Assembly: GCA_016215705.1 (NCBI GenBank)
Contig: JACRIR010000001.1
Location: forward strand, 1-17,711
DNA length: 17,711 nucleotides
Origin: Candidatus Poribacteria bacterium
GTDB taxonomy: Bacteria; Abyssobacteria; SURF-5
Direction of reading: 5' to 3'
Every line of letters begins with the position of its first letter. Within the stretch, counting starts at the first letter, position 1. Below, piece after piece: positions 5,806 through 12,101 of the stretch. The notes under the pieces were generated by a model. The model worked only from the letters and a program-made list of their open reading frames with translations. It was not told the origin of the DNA and ran no database searches. The translations under genes were made by a program, and so were the position numbers.

Positions 5806-6945
5806 TCATCTTTTGCTGCGCATCTCCGTGACCCTAACGGCGATCACCTCGGACGCACGAGAGATATCGTTTTCGGTAGTGTAACGCCCGATACTGAGTC
5901 TCACTGCGCCCAGGGCTAGTTCGCGCGGCACTCCCATTGCCGTAAGGACGTCTGATGGCTCTTTGCGATCGGCATGGCACGCGGAGCCGGTGGATGCAGC
6001 CAACTCCGGGAGGGACGCAAGCAGCATGGAACTGTCGATTTCCTCGAAACTGATATTCAGGGTGTTCGGAAGTCTCTCAGTCGGATGGCCGTTAAGTTTT
6101 ACGCGTCCGGGCTTGGATTCCAGCGCCGAAAGCAGCTTATTCCGAAGAGCAGTCAACCTCTGCAGGTTCGAGTCAAGCTCCTCTCCTGCAAGTTTTGCAG
6201 CCTTACCCAAGCCGGCAATTAACGCGACGTTCTCCGTTCCGGCTCTGAATCCTCGCTCTTGGCCGCCTCCATGGATAAGCGGCTCAAGCTTGGTCCCACG
6301 CCGGACGTGAAGCGCCCCGACTCCCTTGGGCGCATAGAACTTGTGCCCGGCCACTGTGAGCATGTCCACGCCCAGGTCATTCACATCCACTGGAATCTTT
6401 CCGGCCGACTGTGCCGCGTCAGTATGGAAACATATTCCCTTATCCCGGGCAATATTGCCAATCTCTCTTATGGGCTGAATCGATCCGGTCTCGTTGTTTG
6501 CATGCATCACGGAAATCAAGATGGTTCGTTCGGTTATAGCGTCGCGCACTTCGTCCGGGCTCACTCGGCCGAACTCGTCCACACTCAGATATGTGACCTC
6601 GAAACCCTTGCTTTCAAGAAATTTGCAAGCAAGTGTCACAGCCGGGTGCTCGACGGAGGACGTTATAATGTGATTTCCACGATTGACCAGCGCCCCTGCG
6701 ATTCCCTTAATGGCCAAATTGTCAGACTCGCTGCCGCAGCCGGTGAATACGATCTCATCCGGCCGGCAACCGAGCAGAGCGCTTAGTCGCTCACGCGCCA
6801 GCGTGACTGCCTGCCCGGGGTTCCGGCCATAGGCGTGCGCGCTGGACGGGTTGCCGAAGTCCTCCCTGAAACAAGGAAGCATTTCTTCAAGCACTTCTAC
6901 ACGGATGGGGGTGGTTGCGTTATAGTCCAGATAGATAACATTCAT
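5806..6945 (-). CDS. Cysteine desulfurase, NifS/IscS type
   Basis: 379 residues from the ATG with GGAGGAG 6 nt upstream. This class V PLP enzyme takes sulfur (or, in some homologues, selenium) from cysteine as a persulfide on an active-site Cys. Visible signatures are LDYNATTP at the N-terminus, SSVEHPA with H100 (stacks on PLP), D176 and Q179 in HTDAAQSAGK, the PLP lysine K202 in AGHKFYAPKG, and the catalytic Cys 323 in STGSACHADRKEPSDVL. All catalytic residues are present, so it should be active. No nifU/iscU scaffold is adjacent, so its acceptor is unclear; molybdenum cofactor or thiolation chemistry is plausible from the moaE upstream. A second in-frame ATG at 7023 also has a good ribosome site and would add 26 residues. 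Confidence 0.93.
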   Translation of the reverse strand: MNVIYLDYNATTPIRVEVLEEMLPCFREDFGNPSSAHAYGRNPGQAVTLARERLSALLGCRPDEIVFTGCGSESDNLAIKGIAGALVNRGNHIITSSVEHPAVTLACKFLESKGFEVTYLSVDEFGRVSPDEVRDAITERTILISVMHANNETGSIQPIREIGNIARDKGICFHTDAAQSAGKIPVDVNDLGVDMLTVAGHKFYAPKGVGALHVRRGTKLEPLIHGGGQERGFRAGTENVALIAGLGKAAKLAGEELDSNLQRLTALRNKLLSALESKPGRVKLNGHPTERLPNTLNISFEEIDSSMLLASLPELAASTGSACHADRKEPSDVLTAMGVPRELALGAVRLSIGRYTTENDISRASEVIAVRVTEMRSKR

Positions 6946-7047
6946 GGCGCACTCCTCCCGATTGACTGCTTCATATCGATCAGTGTTCTCGTCGAACATG
7001 TTGATGTCGCCAGGATTGCTCATGTCTGCTCCTTCGCACCGGTGGCA

Positions 7048-7088
7048 AAGAATCGGCGACACAATGTCGCATCGTGTCCCCGATTCTT
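7048..7088. repeat. Long hairpin between chrA and nifS
   Basis: AAGAATCGG-C-GACAC, an 11-nt loop, then GTGTC-C-CCGATTCTT gives 14 paired bases around one C-C mismatch. The AATCGGGGACAC arm resembles REP-like repeats seen near IS200/RAYT elements, but no transposase is present. It may also shield or process the nifS message. Confidence 0.6.
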
Positions 7089-7121
7089 ACTGAAACATGA
7101 AGCGCGAACTCGACACGTTGT

Positions 7122-8318
7122 TCACAGGACTGCAACGGAAACAAGCGCGCCAAACAGGACAACCCATAGAATGTCGACCTTCAGGCGGAGTGCGGTGAAG
7201 GCCATCCCTGATAGAACGACGGCTGGGAAGGTCCATGAAACTGCCCGGGCGAAATGCAGAGTCACCGCAAGCAGTAGGCCGACAAATGACACCAGTATCC
7301 CTCGCAGGGCGCGCCGGAAAAGAAGGGAATTCTGCAGGCGATCAAAATACGGAATCGCCGCTGTAACCATAAAGAAGGATGGAGAGAATATGCCGATCGT
7401 CCCGATTATGGCGCCGGTGATTCCTCTTATCTGATATCCTACGAAAGTTGCCGTAATAACGATCGGCCCGGGCGTTACCTGTCCCAACGCAATGCCGTCC
7501 ATAAAAGTCTTGCCGTCCATCCAATGCCGTGCATCGACGACTTCGTGATACATGAGCGGCACGGACGCGAAACCTCCGCCGAATGCAAAGAGGTCAACCT
7601 TCATCATGACTGTCGCGAGCCTGAATAAGCCGTGGTTCACGAAGGACAACGCAGCAACTCCAATCACAACGGCGAGAGCGAATACAATTGGGAAACGCGA
7701 TGGTTTGTCGGTGTCCTCGTGGATTTTGGGACTGTGTGCGCTCAGAATTTTGTCCATATCCTTCCCATAGAGCAGCAACCCAAGCGCCGCTGCCGCGAGG
7801 ACTGCAACAATGGGGCTGCCATGACTTCCCAGAAAAACCGCCGCGCCGGCAGCCAGAAGAGAGTCCTGAATGTTCTTGATCGAACTGCGGCCGAAATTCA
7901 AAGTTGCGTTGGCGATCATAGCCACTACAATCACATGGAGTCCATGAAACGCTGAGATGACGGGACCAAAGTCACGGGTCTTCTGATAGAGCGCAGAAAG
8001 AATGACCATCAAGATGAAGGCGGAAAGTCCAAAGCCGACAAAAGCAGCGAGAGCGCCCAAAGGGCCGGCCGCGCGAAATCCAGCATAGGCTGCGGTCTGC
8101 ATGGCAGTCGCGCCGGGTATGGCTTGGCACAAAGCGACGCCGTCCGCAAACGACTCGTCGGAAAGCCACTGCCTCTTCTTGACCGCCAGTTCGCGAATAT
8201 ACGCCACCATCGTCGGTCCGCCGAACGAGGTGAGCCCAAGACGCAAGAAAGCCATGAAAATCTGGACAGGGAAGATTCTCGCTCTGCCTTCCGGGAGACA
8301 TCGGTCATTGCGGATCAT
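7122..8318 (-). CDS. chrA: ChrA-family chromate transporter, two-domain
   Basis: 398 residues, the usual size of long-chain CHR-family (ChrA) proteins with two homologous halves. The first half carries FLRLGLTSFGGPTMVAYIRE (about residues 24-43) and LCQAIPGATAMQTAAYAG. The second carries VDLFAFGGGFASVPLMYHEV and GIALGQVTPGPIVITATFVG. The remainder is rich in hydrophobic segments, about ten membrane spans. Known ChrA proteins export chromate, but many homologues have no proven substrate and may carry other oxyanions such as sulfate. It starts 22 nt after the MOT1-like gene, so co-transcription is likely. A weak GAAGGGA ribosome site precedes the ATG by 7 nt. Confidence 0.92.
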   Translation of the reverse strand: MIRNDRCLPEGRARIFPVQIFMAFLRLGLTSFGGPTMVAYIRELAVKKRQWLSDESFADGVALCQAIPGATAMQTAAYAGFRAAGPLGALAAFVGFGLSAFILMVILSALYQKTRDFGPVISAFHGLHVIVVAMIANATLNFGRSSIKNIQDSLLAAGAAVFLGSHGSPIVAVLAAAALGLLLYGKDMDKILSAHSPKIHEDTDKPSRFPIVFALAVVIGVAALSFVNHGLFRLATVMMKVDLFAFGGGFASVPLMYHEVVDARHWMDGKTFMDGIALGQVTPGPIVITATFVGYQIRGITGAIIGTIGIFSPSFFMVTAAIPYFDRLQNSLLFRRALRGILVSFVGLLLAVTLHFARAVSWTFPAVVLSGMAFTALRLKVDILWVVLFGALVSVAVL

Positions 8319-8340
8319 ATAGTAATCCCTTCGATCCGCA

Positions 8341-9513
8341 TCAAAGTCTTACCCAACTCCTCTGCAGCAGTTGATAGAGGATGATGCCCGCCAGAAACGC
8401 GACGCCCATGTTCCACATGGCGAGGCCCGCGACCACAAGCATTACGTAAACATCCTCCTTCTTGCTTCCGATGTCTCTTACCGTTATGGCGAGTTCGGTT
8501 CCCGCGAAGAAGAGAATGACGCCCAACATGGCCTTCGGGAACGCCTGGAAAAGAACACCTATCGAATTGCTGAAGAATAGGGCCAGCGCCAGCATAATGG
8601 CCCCGAGCATCACCAGCGAGCCGCCTGTGCGAGCGCCGAAGCGAACGTGGCCGGCCATTCCGCCGGCGCCATGGCACATCGGGATGCCGCCGAACGGCGC
8701 CGAAGCCATGTTCATCAGACCCTGTGACACGGCCATCATGCGATCAGTCACCGGCCGATCAGGAAAAAGCTCGTTGTTCTCAGCCCGAATAGCGATTACT
8801 GCATTGCCGATTGTGAGCGGAATTTGCGGAATGGCCAAAATGAGCGCGCCTTGGATGAACTCTTTCCATGTCGTTCGCGCCAACGTGAATTCCGGCATCC
8901 GGAAATCCGGTCGAATTCCTGAAAGCTCTTGCGCAAGAGTCGGGTCTAGAACGAAAGCTGCCGCCGCGCCTACAATCAGCAGCGCGAACATGGCAGGGAA
9001 TTTGGGATACGTGAGGAAGAAATATGTAACGAACAGCCCGATGATGGCGAGCCACCAAGTTGCGCGCATCATCCGGACGCCTTCCGTGATGAACAAAAGG
9101 CCAAGGCCGAGCACGATGCCCCGAATAATCGGTTTGGCGGCCAGTCTCGTAACCAGATTGACTATTTTCGAGGAGCCTGCCAGAAACCAGAAAATCCCCG
9201 TAAACAGGCCCGCTCCGCATATCATGCCGGGGCTGATGGCGCCGCCGGAAGCGATGGCCGCCCCGCCGATGGCTTTCATCGGCTGGACAGGTATCGGGGT
9301 CTTGTAGTAAAGGCCGACCACGATCAAAGAGGCCCCAAACATGAACAAAATGCCTAGAGGATCAATCTTCATGACAGCAATGTATCCGACCACGAAGGGG
9401 ATCAGTGTACCTAAATCACCAAACGCGCCTGCCAACTCGACGTGATCGTATTTGTTCTTCCCCAGCCGCCAGCGCTGTGTCCAGTGAACGTCCGTCGCCT
9501 GTTCAGTAGTCAT
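8341..9513 (-). CDS. MOT1-like molybdate/sulfate transporter
   Basis: 390 residues starting MTTEQATDVHWTQRW; GGAG lies 6 nt upstream. An ATG at 9588 is in frame but has no ribosome site. The protein has the two MOT1/SulP-like signatures: ELAGAFGDLGTLIPFV (about residues 26-41) with PIPVQPMKAIGGAAIASG, and in the second half FGGIPMCHGAGGMAGHVRFG. About ten hydrophobic membrane segments surround them. The MFS_MOT1 family takes up molybdate in plants and algae; bacterial members are usually annotated as putative sulfate/molybdate transporters. Its position after moaE supports molybdate (or tungstate) as substrate, while the downstream chrA and nifS leave sulfate open. Confidence 0.88.
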   Translation of the reverse strand: MTTEQATDVHWTQRWRLGKNKYDHVELAGAFGDLGTLIPFVVGYIAVMKIDPLGILFMFGASLIVVGLYYKTPIPVQPMKAIGGAAIASGGAISPGMICGAGLFTGIFWFLAGSSKIVNLVTRLAAKPIIRGIVLGLGLLFITEGVRMMRATWWLAIIGLFVTYFFLTYPKFPAMFALLIVGAAAAFVLDPTLAQELSGIRPDFRMPEFTLARTTWKEFIQGALILAIPQIPLTIGNAVIAIRAENNELFPDRPVTDRMMAVSQGLMNMASAPFGGIPMCHGAGGMAGHVRFGARTGGSLVMLGAIMLALALFFSNSIGVLFQAFPKAMLGVILFFAGTELAITVRDIGSKKEDVYVMLVVAGLAMWNMGVAFLAGIILYQLLQRSWVRL

Positions 9514-9670
9514 GTCGCGCTCCGTGGTTGATGCCTCATACAATGCGTTCACTTCTCCCAAAATGATCTTCTTTTCCTGCTTCTTCAAGAAATCTGCGAA
9601 AATCAGTACAGATCAGTGGCTCATTTCCTTTTCTTCCTGGTGTTGCTTCGTGCGCCTTCGTGGATGTCCC

Positions 9671-10051
9671 CTAATTCTCGAACAACTCTTCTTTCTTCAC
9701 ATTCTTAAGCTTCTTGAACCGTTCTACCGCTTCGCTGCACGCTCCGAATGCGGTGTCTCTATCAGGTGATGAAACGGCAGCCGCTAATATGATATCGCCG
9801 ATGGAGAGCGCGCCGACCCTGCGAATGAGCAGCACATCTACCAGGGTCCACTTCTCGCGTAGCGCCGTCTCAATCGAGCGTATCTCCTCTTTAAGGTCGG
9901 CTTGAGGGGTGAAACGAATCCCCCTCGTGCGCTTACCCTGCGTCACCGGCTTCACCACGCCGAAATGAACCACTACCGAACCTGCGCCTTCATGCGATAT
10001 TCGCTCATATACGGCGCGCGGGTCGATTGGTTCATCAGTCAATTCGATCAT
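9671..10051 (-). CDS. moaE: Molybdopterin synthase catalytic subunit MoaE
   Basis: 126 residues. MoaE, with the small thiocarboxylated subunit MoaD, converts precursor Z (cPMP) to molybdopterin in the cytoplasm. Matching signatures are GAGSVVVHFGVV near residue 22, the basic GKRTRG turn, the helix EEIRSIETALREKW, then VLLIRRVGALSIGDIILAAAV, and the C-terminal LKNVKKEELFE carrying the lysines needed for catalysis. The length is slightly short for the family (about 140-150) but complete. Its ATG overlaps the TGA of the preceding arsR (ATGA), so the two are translationally coupled. No moaD or other moa genes are in the window. Confidence 0.92.
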   Translation of the reverse strand: MIELTDEPIDPRAVYERISHEGAGSVVVHFGVVKPVTQGKRTRGIRFTPQADLKEEIRSIETALREKWTLVDVLLIRRVGALSIGDIILAAAVSSPDRDTAFGACSEAVERFKKLKNVKKEELFEN

Positions 10052-10527
10052 CGTTTCCTCCGTTGCTTCGCGCAGGCGTGCTCTTTTCCGTCACGATGGC
10101 ATTTCTTGATTTGTTCCGGCGAGCATTTCCCAGACGTCTTGGTTTTCAGTTCATCGGGTTTCTGGCACTTGCTCTTGTTGTCGCACATCGATAGATTCTT
10201 CCTTTCCTTGCCGGATGAGCGCCCGGGCGAATACGCTTTCTCGGCGTCCGTTTCGATAAACCACTCAACTGCCTCTTTCCATTGAGCGAAAGCTTCCTCG
10301 TTCAGGCGGTAGTGGACGAAGTAGCCTCGTCTCTCCGGTGTCACAAGGTCCGCTTCCCTGAGGACGCGCAAGTGTTGTGACACGGCCCCCTGGCTGATGC
10401 CAAGCCGGTCCGAGAGCGCGCCCACGCACAGCGTGTGCCTCTTCAGCACATAGACCATACGGACACGTGTTTTGGCGGAAAGGGCTTTGAAAACGCGGGA
10501 CAGTTCTTCGATTTCGATATTGTTCAT
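10048..10527 (-). CDS. ArsR-family regulator with Cys-rich C-terminal tail
   Basis: 159 residues. The winged helix-turn-helix covers about 6-92: HTLCVGALSDRLGISQGAVS with recognition helix AVSQHLRVLREADLV and wing ERRGYFVHYRL. A linker is followed by a tail with cysteines at 115, 121, 135, 143 and 152 (MCDNKSKCQKPDEL, then CSPEQIKKCH and HAC), a small Cys/His module that looks like an appended metal-binding domain. The stop overlaps the start of moaE. No Shine-Dalgarno is visible upstream of the ATG, so initiation may be weak or atypical. Probably autoregulated at 10537-10558 and, through the overlap, controlling moaE; a molybdenum, tungsten or thiol-metal ligand is inference. Confidence 0.9.
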   Translation of the reverse strand: MNNIEIEELSRVFKALSAKTRVRMVYVLKRHTLCVGALSDRLGISQGAVSQHLRVLREADLVTPERRGYFVHYRLNEEAFAQWKEAVEWFIETDAEKAYSPGRSSGKERKNLSMCDNKSKCQKPDELKTKTSGKCSPEQIKKCHRDGKEHACAKQRRKR

Positions 10528-10699: not shown

Positions 10700-10707
10700 A
10701 AGAGTCC

Positions 10708-10828
10708 AAGGGGATGGAGTCCCCCCCCATAACCGCCTGACTCGGCTGATGACTCCTACCGCGTAACACCCCATCGAAATCGGCATGAATAGAAATGCCG
10801 GCTTCAAGGAACGCAGTGGGAGTTTTTT
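10708..10828 (+). ncRNA. Fluoride riboswitch (crcB motif) with terminator platform
   Basis: The aptamer (about 10708-10763) shows the conserved crcB-motif elements in order: GGGGATGGAGTCCCC, then ATAACCGCC, then GGCTGATGACTCCTACC. Downstream, CGCAGTGGGAGT (10812-10823) can pair with ACTCCTACCGCG (10752-10763; one mismatch, one wobble) and is followed by TTTTTT (10823-10828), giving an intrinsic terminator whose 5' arm uses the aptamer's own conserved 3' strand. A small hairpin (CGGCAT at 10781-10786, ATGCCG at 10795-10800) lies in its loop. Fluoride binding should hold the aptamer, prevent the terminator and switch crcB on. The crcB gene directly downstream confirms the assignment. Confidence 0.95.
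10752..10828 (+). terminator. Riboswitch-controlled intrinsic terminator
   Basis: Arms 10752-10763 and 10812-10823, with a T-run at 10823-10828. The 5' arm overlaps the ACTCCTAC core of the fluoride aptamer, making the two structures mutually exclusive. Confidence 0.85.
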
Positions 10829-10877
10829 GTTGTCTTCGCGTCAGACGACGTGCTGAGAAATTCAGAGGAGATCATAG

Positions 10878-11252
10878 ATGCTTCAAAAGCTGTTGTGGCT
10901 CACGTTAGCGGGAGCGCTGGGAACATTGGCTCGATATGGCATTGCTGGAACAGTTCAACGAGGGCTCGGGGGTGAGTTCCCATGGGGGACATTGGCTGTA
11001 AACCTTGCAGGGTGTTTTCTTGCCGGCATATTCTTGTCGCTGGCGGAAGGCAGACTGATCGGCGGGGAGGCGCGGACCATCATCTTCATTGGATTCATGG
11101 GAGCATTTACCACGTTTTCCGCGTTTGTGTTGGAGACGAGCGAACTGCTTCAAGATACGCAATGGGCATGGGCCATGGGAAACATCATGCTGCAGAATGC
11201 GTGCGGAATTGTCATCTTCTTCGTTGGGCTTATTCTTGGCCGCCTGGTGTAA
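10878..11252 (+). CDS. crcB: Fluoride exporter CrcB/Fluc
   Basis: 124 residues, typical of single-domain Fluc channels, which act as antiparallel homodimers in the inner membrane and let fluoride leave the cell. GAGGAG lies 7 nt before the ATG. Diagnostic segments are GALGTLARYGIAG (12-24), WGTLAVNLAGCF with N42, and GFMGAFTTFSAF (72-83) with the two pore phenylalanines F80 and F83. Four hydrophobic spans are visible. Controlled by the fluoride riboswitch immediately upstream. A second crcB is not needed if it homodimerises. Next gene, DUF190, starts 13 nt later. Confidence 0.97.
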   Translation: MLQKLLWLTLAGALGTLARYGIAGTVQRGLGGEFPWGTLAVNLAGCFLAGIFLSLAEGRLIGGEARTIIFIGFMGAFTTFSAFVLETSELLQDTQWAWAMGNIMLQNACGIVIFFVGLILGRLV

Positions 11253-11265
11253 CAGGAGGGTATCC

Positions 11266-11619
11266 ATGAAACTGCCTTCAGAAGCCGAGCTTCTTAGAAT
11301 TTTTATTGGCGAGACCGACAAGCATGGCGGACGGCCTCTTTACGAAGTCATCGTTGAATCGGCCCGCAAGCGGGGAATGGCGGGAGCAACCGTGTTGCGC
11401 GGGCTGTTGAGTTTTGGCGCCAACAGCAGAATCCACACTGCCAAGATACTGAGGCTTTCCGAGGATTTGCCTGTTGTCATCGAGATTGTCGATAAACCGG
11501 AGAGAATCGCAGAATTCCTGCCTGAACTGGATGAGATGATCGAAGAGGGATTGATCACACTGGAGAAGGTGCAAGTGATAGCTTATCGTCACAATCCAGG
11601 TGCGAGGCCGGCGGGGTAG
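11266..11619 (+). CDS. DUF190 domain protein (PII-like fold)
   Basis: 117 residues; AGGAGG 6 nt upstream of the ATG. The sequence ELLRIFIGETDKHGGRPLYE, then GMAGATVLRGLLSFGANSRI, then LPVVIEIVDKPERI and MIEEGLITLEKVQVI is characteristic of DUF190 (COG1993), a family with a predicted PII-like ferredoxin fold often encoded beside crcB. It is cytoplasmic, with no membrane segment or signal. A regulatory or accessory role in fluoride export is inferred only from this recurrent linkage. Confidence 0.95.
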   Translation: MKLPSEAELLRIFIGETDKHGGRPLYEVIVESARKRGMAGATVLRGLLSFGANSRIHTAKILRLSEDLPVVIEIVDKPERIAEFLPELDEMIEEGLITLEKVQVIAYRHNPGARPAG

Positions 11620-11645: not shown

Positions 11646-12101
11646 ATGGAAAAAGAAGCAATCGAAAAACAGGTTCGTGAAAGTGTGAGCACAATGATGC
11701 ATCGGGGGTTCAACTGAGCGCAATCGGTACTCGGCTCCTGGCAGGAGCTGCTCGGCTCAAGAGATGATCTCGTACTCAGGTGCGCCACCGGTTTCGGCGG
11801 CGGGATAGGGGGGCGCGGTTCCATCTGCGGAGTCATTTCGGGAAGCGTCATGGTGATCGGCCTGAAACACGGTCGCGGCAGGGAAGACGATATGAGCGCG
11901 GCCATGAACACGTATCTGCGATGCAGCCGACTGCTCGAGTGGTTCAATGAGGAGTTCGGTTCAGAGATGTGTTCGAGCCTTACCGGCGGCGTCGATTTTA
12001 GTGATTCGGAGCAACTCGCGAAGTGGTATCAATCCGGCCACGAGAAATGCGTCGAGATGGCAGGAAAGACAGCAGCCAAACTGGCGGAGTTGCTGGAATA
12101 A
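11646..12101 (+). CDS. C_GCAxxG_C_C family protein, probable selenoprotein (UGA at codon 24)
   Basis: The frame runs 151 residues from an ATG with GAGGAGGAG just upstream, interrupted only by TGA at 11715-11717 (codon 24). The context is RGFN-U-AQSVLGSW; this family normally has N-C-A-Q-(A/S)-V-L there, so UGA stands exactly at the first conserved cysteine. Downstream the frame is intact and canonical: LRCATGFGGGIGG (44-56), SICGVISGSVMVIGLKHG (59-76) and later FGSEMC (104-109). A hairpin fitting a bacterial SECIS follows the UGA (11732-11750). Read-through as selenocysteine is thus more likely than a pseudogene. Proteins of this family are thought to be redox or metal-cofactor proteins of anaerobes, without a settled function. 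It is the third gene behind the fluoride riboswitch. selA/selB/selC/selD are not in the window. Confidence 0.85.
11732..11750 (+). promoter_or_regulatory. Putative bacterial SECIS element
   Basis: CGGCTCCT-GGC-AGGAGCTG folds into an 8-bp stem (one G-U) with a GGC triloop. The loop begins 22 nt after the UGA. Known bacterial SECIS elements place a small loop starting with G about 16-37 nt after the UGA, so position, loop and leading G residues all agree. Confidence 0.75.

Follow-up and report, generated by a model that had tools for sequence, protein, structure and literature searches.

The gene at positions 11646-12101 of the window (the whole stretch of DNA that was analyzed, 17,711 nt) carries a UGA at codon 24 which very probably encodes selenocysteine (Sec). 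We infer Sec insertion itself from four lines of evidence: the Sec machinery of the genome, the conservation of the TGA, the alternation of Cys and Sec among homologs, and the conservation of a SECIS-like hairpin. The selenoprotein reading is thus strongly supported. The protein is ordinary in kind, and its placement behind a fluoride riboswitch is local to the Abyssobacteria lineage. For the account as a whole, that is, a UGA-24 selenoprotein of a known family with a local operon placement and without a dedicated fluoride function, we estimate a probability of roughly 0.85. The features of the locus are listed in Table 1.

Table 1. Features of the fluoride riboswitch locus and the adjoining selenoprotein gene (window coordinates).
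Feature	Positions	Strand	Evidence
Fluoride riboswitch aptamer (RF01734)	10701-10765	+	cmscan 54 bits, gathering threshold 34; the only one in the genome
Probable intrinsic terminator, overlapping the 3' end of the aptamer (transcriptional ON switch)	10745-10832	+	-31 kcal/mol, z -3.5, followed by T6
crcB / Fluc fluoride exporter	10878-11252	+	PF02537, E 2.7e-25; TIGR00494, 84.8 bits (cut-off 80.45)
DUF190 protein (COG1993)	11266-11619	+	PF02641, E 6.9e-43
Predicted Sec-containing C_GCAxxG_C_C protein, 151 aa	11646-12101	+	PF09719, TIGR01909; orthologs with the same TGA; dN much lower than dS upstream and downstream of it
UGA codon 24, very probably read as Sec	11715-11717	+	Aligns with an invariant Cys/Sec position (44/44 homologs)
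SECIS-like hairpin, 8 pairs, GGC loop	11732-11750	+	Folding, resampling, compensatory change in one ortholog

A very probable selenoprotein of the C_GCAxxG_C_C family

The sequence-only reading had placed an in-frame TGA exactly at a conserved Cys of an otherwise intact gene, and this was confirmed by the translation and by the homologs. The TGA is the only in-frame stop; the rest of the frame is open and canonical, an RBS-like GAGGAGGAG is located upstream of the ATG, and the context of the TGA in translation is GFN-U-AQSVLG. Standard gene calling would truncate the gene at this codon. The product matches PF09719 (C_GCAxxG_C_C) with 95.8 bits (cut-off 27, E 2.5e-27) and TIGR01909 with 78.5 bits (cut-off 47.4). 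Position 24 is occupied by Cys or Sec in all aligned homologs. Invariant Cys residues are also found at C61 and C109 (44/44 each) and at C135 (42/42 homologs reaching that position), so that U24, C61, C109, and C135 represent the four conserved Cys positions of the family. Its CGxxxG motif is present at C61 as CGVISG.

The family descriptions (PF09719 / TIGR01909) give redox activity as putative. Sec24 would replace the first of the four invariant Cys (24, 61, 109, 135) and, because of this position, most likely provides the attacking selenolate in a redox center of the thiol/selenol type. An AlphaFold2 model computed from the single sequence was of low quality (pLDDT 59), and the search of solved structures gave no match.

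Conservation of the TGA and of the SECIS-like hairpin

The phylum sample comprised three genomes, the source genome (G000) and its relatives G001 and G002. The orthologs from G001 and G002 (78% and 76% protein identity across the pair) have the TGA at the same codon, which is thus common to three genera. Downstream of the TGA, dN is 0.13-0.17 and dS is 1.5-1.9, with synonymous sites near saturation; for the 23 codons upstream, dN is 0.25-0.32 and dS about 1 or more. Since the TGA has been kept through near-saturated synonymous divergence, we consider it functional. The disrupted homologs which the sequence-only reading had named as evidence against itself did not turn up: the frame is intact and the TGA is retained in both relatives.

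The proposed alternation between Cys and Sec at codon 24 was also observed, both forms being found among the aligned homologs. Outside the phylum, Sec is encoded at this site in L080, L094, and L095, whose three genomes belong to other lineages. It is also found in domain 1 of a two-domain paralog which is present in 3/3 Abyssobacteria. In the source genome, this C_GCAxxG_C_C paralog (L021 / L030, G000:C269:34684-35619, minus strand) has a TGA in domain 1 and Cys in domain 2, and its orthologs in G001 and G002 likewise carry a TGA.

The hairpin has the sequence CGGCTCCT-GGC-AGGAGCTG. A distance of 22 nt after the TGA had been reported for the start of the stem; this fits the GGC loop, which lies at nt 23, but not the stem, which begins 15 nt past the TGA. 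All three orthologs have a stem of 8-9 pairs with a GGC loop from nt 23. When synonymous codons were resampled, an equally good hairpin was obtained in 5% of the trials for the gene itself, and in 1.8% and 0.9% for the orthologs. At these frequencies, the hairpin in a single sequence is modest evidence only. In G001, codons 31 and 33 both differ synonymously, and the pair adjacent to the one that closes the loop is thereby U-A rather than C-G; as this is a single compensatory event, the support from covariation is limited. Across codons 29-36, which span the hairpin, there is zero synonymous difference between the gene of the source genome and its G002 ortholog, compared to an overall 0.69 per site for this pair. 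Hairpin scores are higher for Sec forms than for Cys forms (p 1.5e-4 for all sequences, 0.011 for five independent cases). The folding energy of the 61-nt segment is not exceptional relative to shuffled sequences (z -0.3 to -0.9), and paralog L021 has no hairpin with a G in the loop. Overall, the stem-loop is conserved in all three orthologs, with one compensatory pair; a lack of conservation, which the sequence-only reading had also named as evidence against itself, was not seen. In one Cys form (L103, G116:C6, minus strand; codon TGC), a strong hairpin (TTCTGCC-GTG-GGCAGAA) is found where a SECIS element would lie, and this gene may be a former Sec gene.

Selenocysteine machinery and alternative readings of the TGA

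The source genome (5.47 Mb, 270 contigs, 92% complete) was searched for selA, selB, selC, and selD, as the sequence-only reading had proposed, and all four were found. SelB (371.5 bits, cut-off 242) is encoded on the same contig as SelA (580 bits), and tRNA-Sec was detected with 68 bits and called by ARAGORN as tRNA-SeC(tca). A second tRNA-Sec-like match on contig C42 proved to be a tRNA-Leu and was rejected. The selD gene (391 bits) has an in-frame TGA of its own. Because this applies to all three Abyssobacteria selD genes (L039, L040, L041), SelD is probably a selenoprotein itself in this lineage. With this machinery, UGA 24 would be decoded by SelB and tRNA-Sec, aided by the hairpin with its loop from nt 23.

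Two other readings of the TGA were considered. It might be a disabling mutation that leaves a pseudogene or two short ORFs, and one TGA in an otherwise intact gene would be a simple mutation; there is also an ATG at 11850 in the part following the TGA. However, the same TGA persists in three genera despite near-saturated synonymous divergence, dN is much lower than dS both before and after it, and the genome has a complete Sec machinery. Given that the relatives share the TGA and that the coding sequence on either side is under purifying selection, we reject the pseudogene reading as highly improbable. Alternatively, a changed genetic code or a suppressor might cause the TGA to be read as Trp or Cys, with which this gene, taken alone, would be compatible. 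Against this, the position is that of an invariant Cys, not a Trp, the genome has a tRNA-Sec with a UCA anticodon, and the other long genes of the window do not need TGA read-through, so that such recoding has hardly any probability either.

The fluoride riboswitch locus in the source genome and in relatives

According to the sequence-only reading, a fluoride switch is followed by crcB, DUF190, and, in third place, the selenoprotein gene. The aptamer match and the gene order confirm this, with the selenoprotein gene on the same strand and downstream of aptamer and terminator. The intergenic gaps are 13 nt (crcB-DUF190) and 26 nt (DUF190-selenoprotein gene), no terminator was found in the latter, and a weak promoter-like match inside crcB (11209-11236) is at about chance level. 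Judging from this anatomy, the selenoprotein gene is probably cotranscribed with crcB and DUF190 in the source genome, and fluoride, by preventing termination, would increase its mRNA. The minus-strand run at 5806-10527 codes for a NifS-like desulfurase, a chromate transporter, a MOT1-type molybdate transporter, MoaE, and an ArsR-type regulator and has the appearance of an oxyanion/molybdenum cluster.

All three genomes contain a single fluoride switch each, and the arrangement of the source genome is not conserved in G001 and G002. There, the switch precedes an antiporter which is absent from G000 and which we take by eye to be of the CPA type; crcB and DUF190 were sought in both genomes and are absent. 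The selenoprotein gene is followed in both by a gene which we recognize as presumably MscS-type and which lacks a close homolog in G000. In G002, the switch is 1.9 kb upstream of the ortholog on the other strand. Because the two units are divergent, this switch cannot control the selenoprotein gene; most of the gap is taken up by a group II intron (L051, 8936-10456), located between the switch-antiporter unit and the selenoprotein gene. In G001, switch and selenoprotein gene are on different contigs. A survey of 386 genomes yielded 66 with the C_GCAxxG_C_C family, 80 with a fluoride switch match, and 22 with both; the switch search used stricter filters, which weak switches may escape, and distances were compared by hand. 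Family and switch are within 5 kb of each other in 2/22 genomes, only G000 and G002, and in 0/19 genomes from other lineages. In G116 and G253 they are 13-15 kb apart, and an operon was rejected.

These data bear on the claim that the Sec protein is linked to the fluoride response, of which the operon anatomy stands, in one genome; crcB-DUF190 is missing in the relatives and there is no co-location outside the lineage. The selenoprotein could be a functional part of the fluoride response, for example in the repair of redox or metal damage that fluoride causes, with selection for the linkage. In favor of this, the source genome has a single fluoride-switch operon, with this gene in third position, and the G002 ortholog lies close to the only switch there, beside a non-homologous antiporter; we estimate, after the fact, that chance adjacency within 2 kb has a probability of about 1 in 1000 in G002. 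Because adjacency recurs with two unrelated exporters, a functional link is possible. However, the separate contigs in G001, the divergent units in G002, the absence of co-location in other lineages, and the MscS-type gene as the conserved neighbor of the orthologs argue against it, and shared ancestry of the locus accounts for the linkage equally well. We thus consider such a function unlikely. The more specific version, in which the selenoprotein is induced by fluoride, aids fluoride tolerance, and was kept beside the unit while the exporter was exchanged (antiporter versus crcB), is similarly doubtful. If a fluoride link were true, selenium-dependent redox chemistry would become part of an ion-stress response; induction and tolerance together would be the first link between a selenoprotein and fluoride. 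The most economical reading is a fluoride cassette adjoining an older selenoprotein gene: most likely, a unit of fluoride switch, crcB, and DUF190 became positioned in front of this gene, and the placement would then be no mark of a dedicated fluoride function.

Relationship to known systems

As the sequence-only reading had stated, Sec members of the family were known before: a table in a 2022 review (PMC9312934) catalogs them and cites the ocean survey of Zhang and Gladyshev (2008). The gene adds a well-supported selenoprotein for a little-studied deep-subsurface lineage, Candidatus Abyssobacteria, whose 2018 genome paper (PMC6121073) has no match for "selen". In a literature set poor in subscription journals, no paper was found that combines "fluoride riboswitch" and "selenoprotein". 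The operon placement behind a fluoride switch is new and was found in one genome.

The protein shares its length, the four invariant Cys, and the CGxxxG motif with the C-GCAxxG-C-C family (seleno)proteins (TIGR01909 / PF09719) and differs in the placement of its gene behind a fluoride switch and crcB-DUF190. There is weak similarity to the HUGP/GUXX-star fusion selenoprotein (NF045501), for which membership was rejected (59.9 bits, far below the cut-off of 325). According to a review of fluoride biology (PMC11139923), switch-associated genes code for exporters, Na+/H+ antiporters, enolase, and phosphatases, and those in switch operons include crcB, CLC-F, and pyrophosphatase. With these operons, the locus described here has the aptamer, the terminator, and crcB as the first gene in common, whereas here the last gene is that of the predicted selenoprotein.
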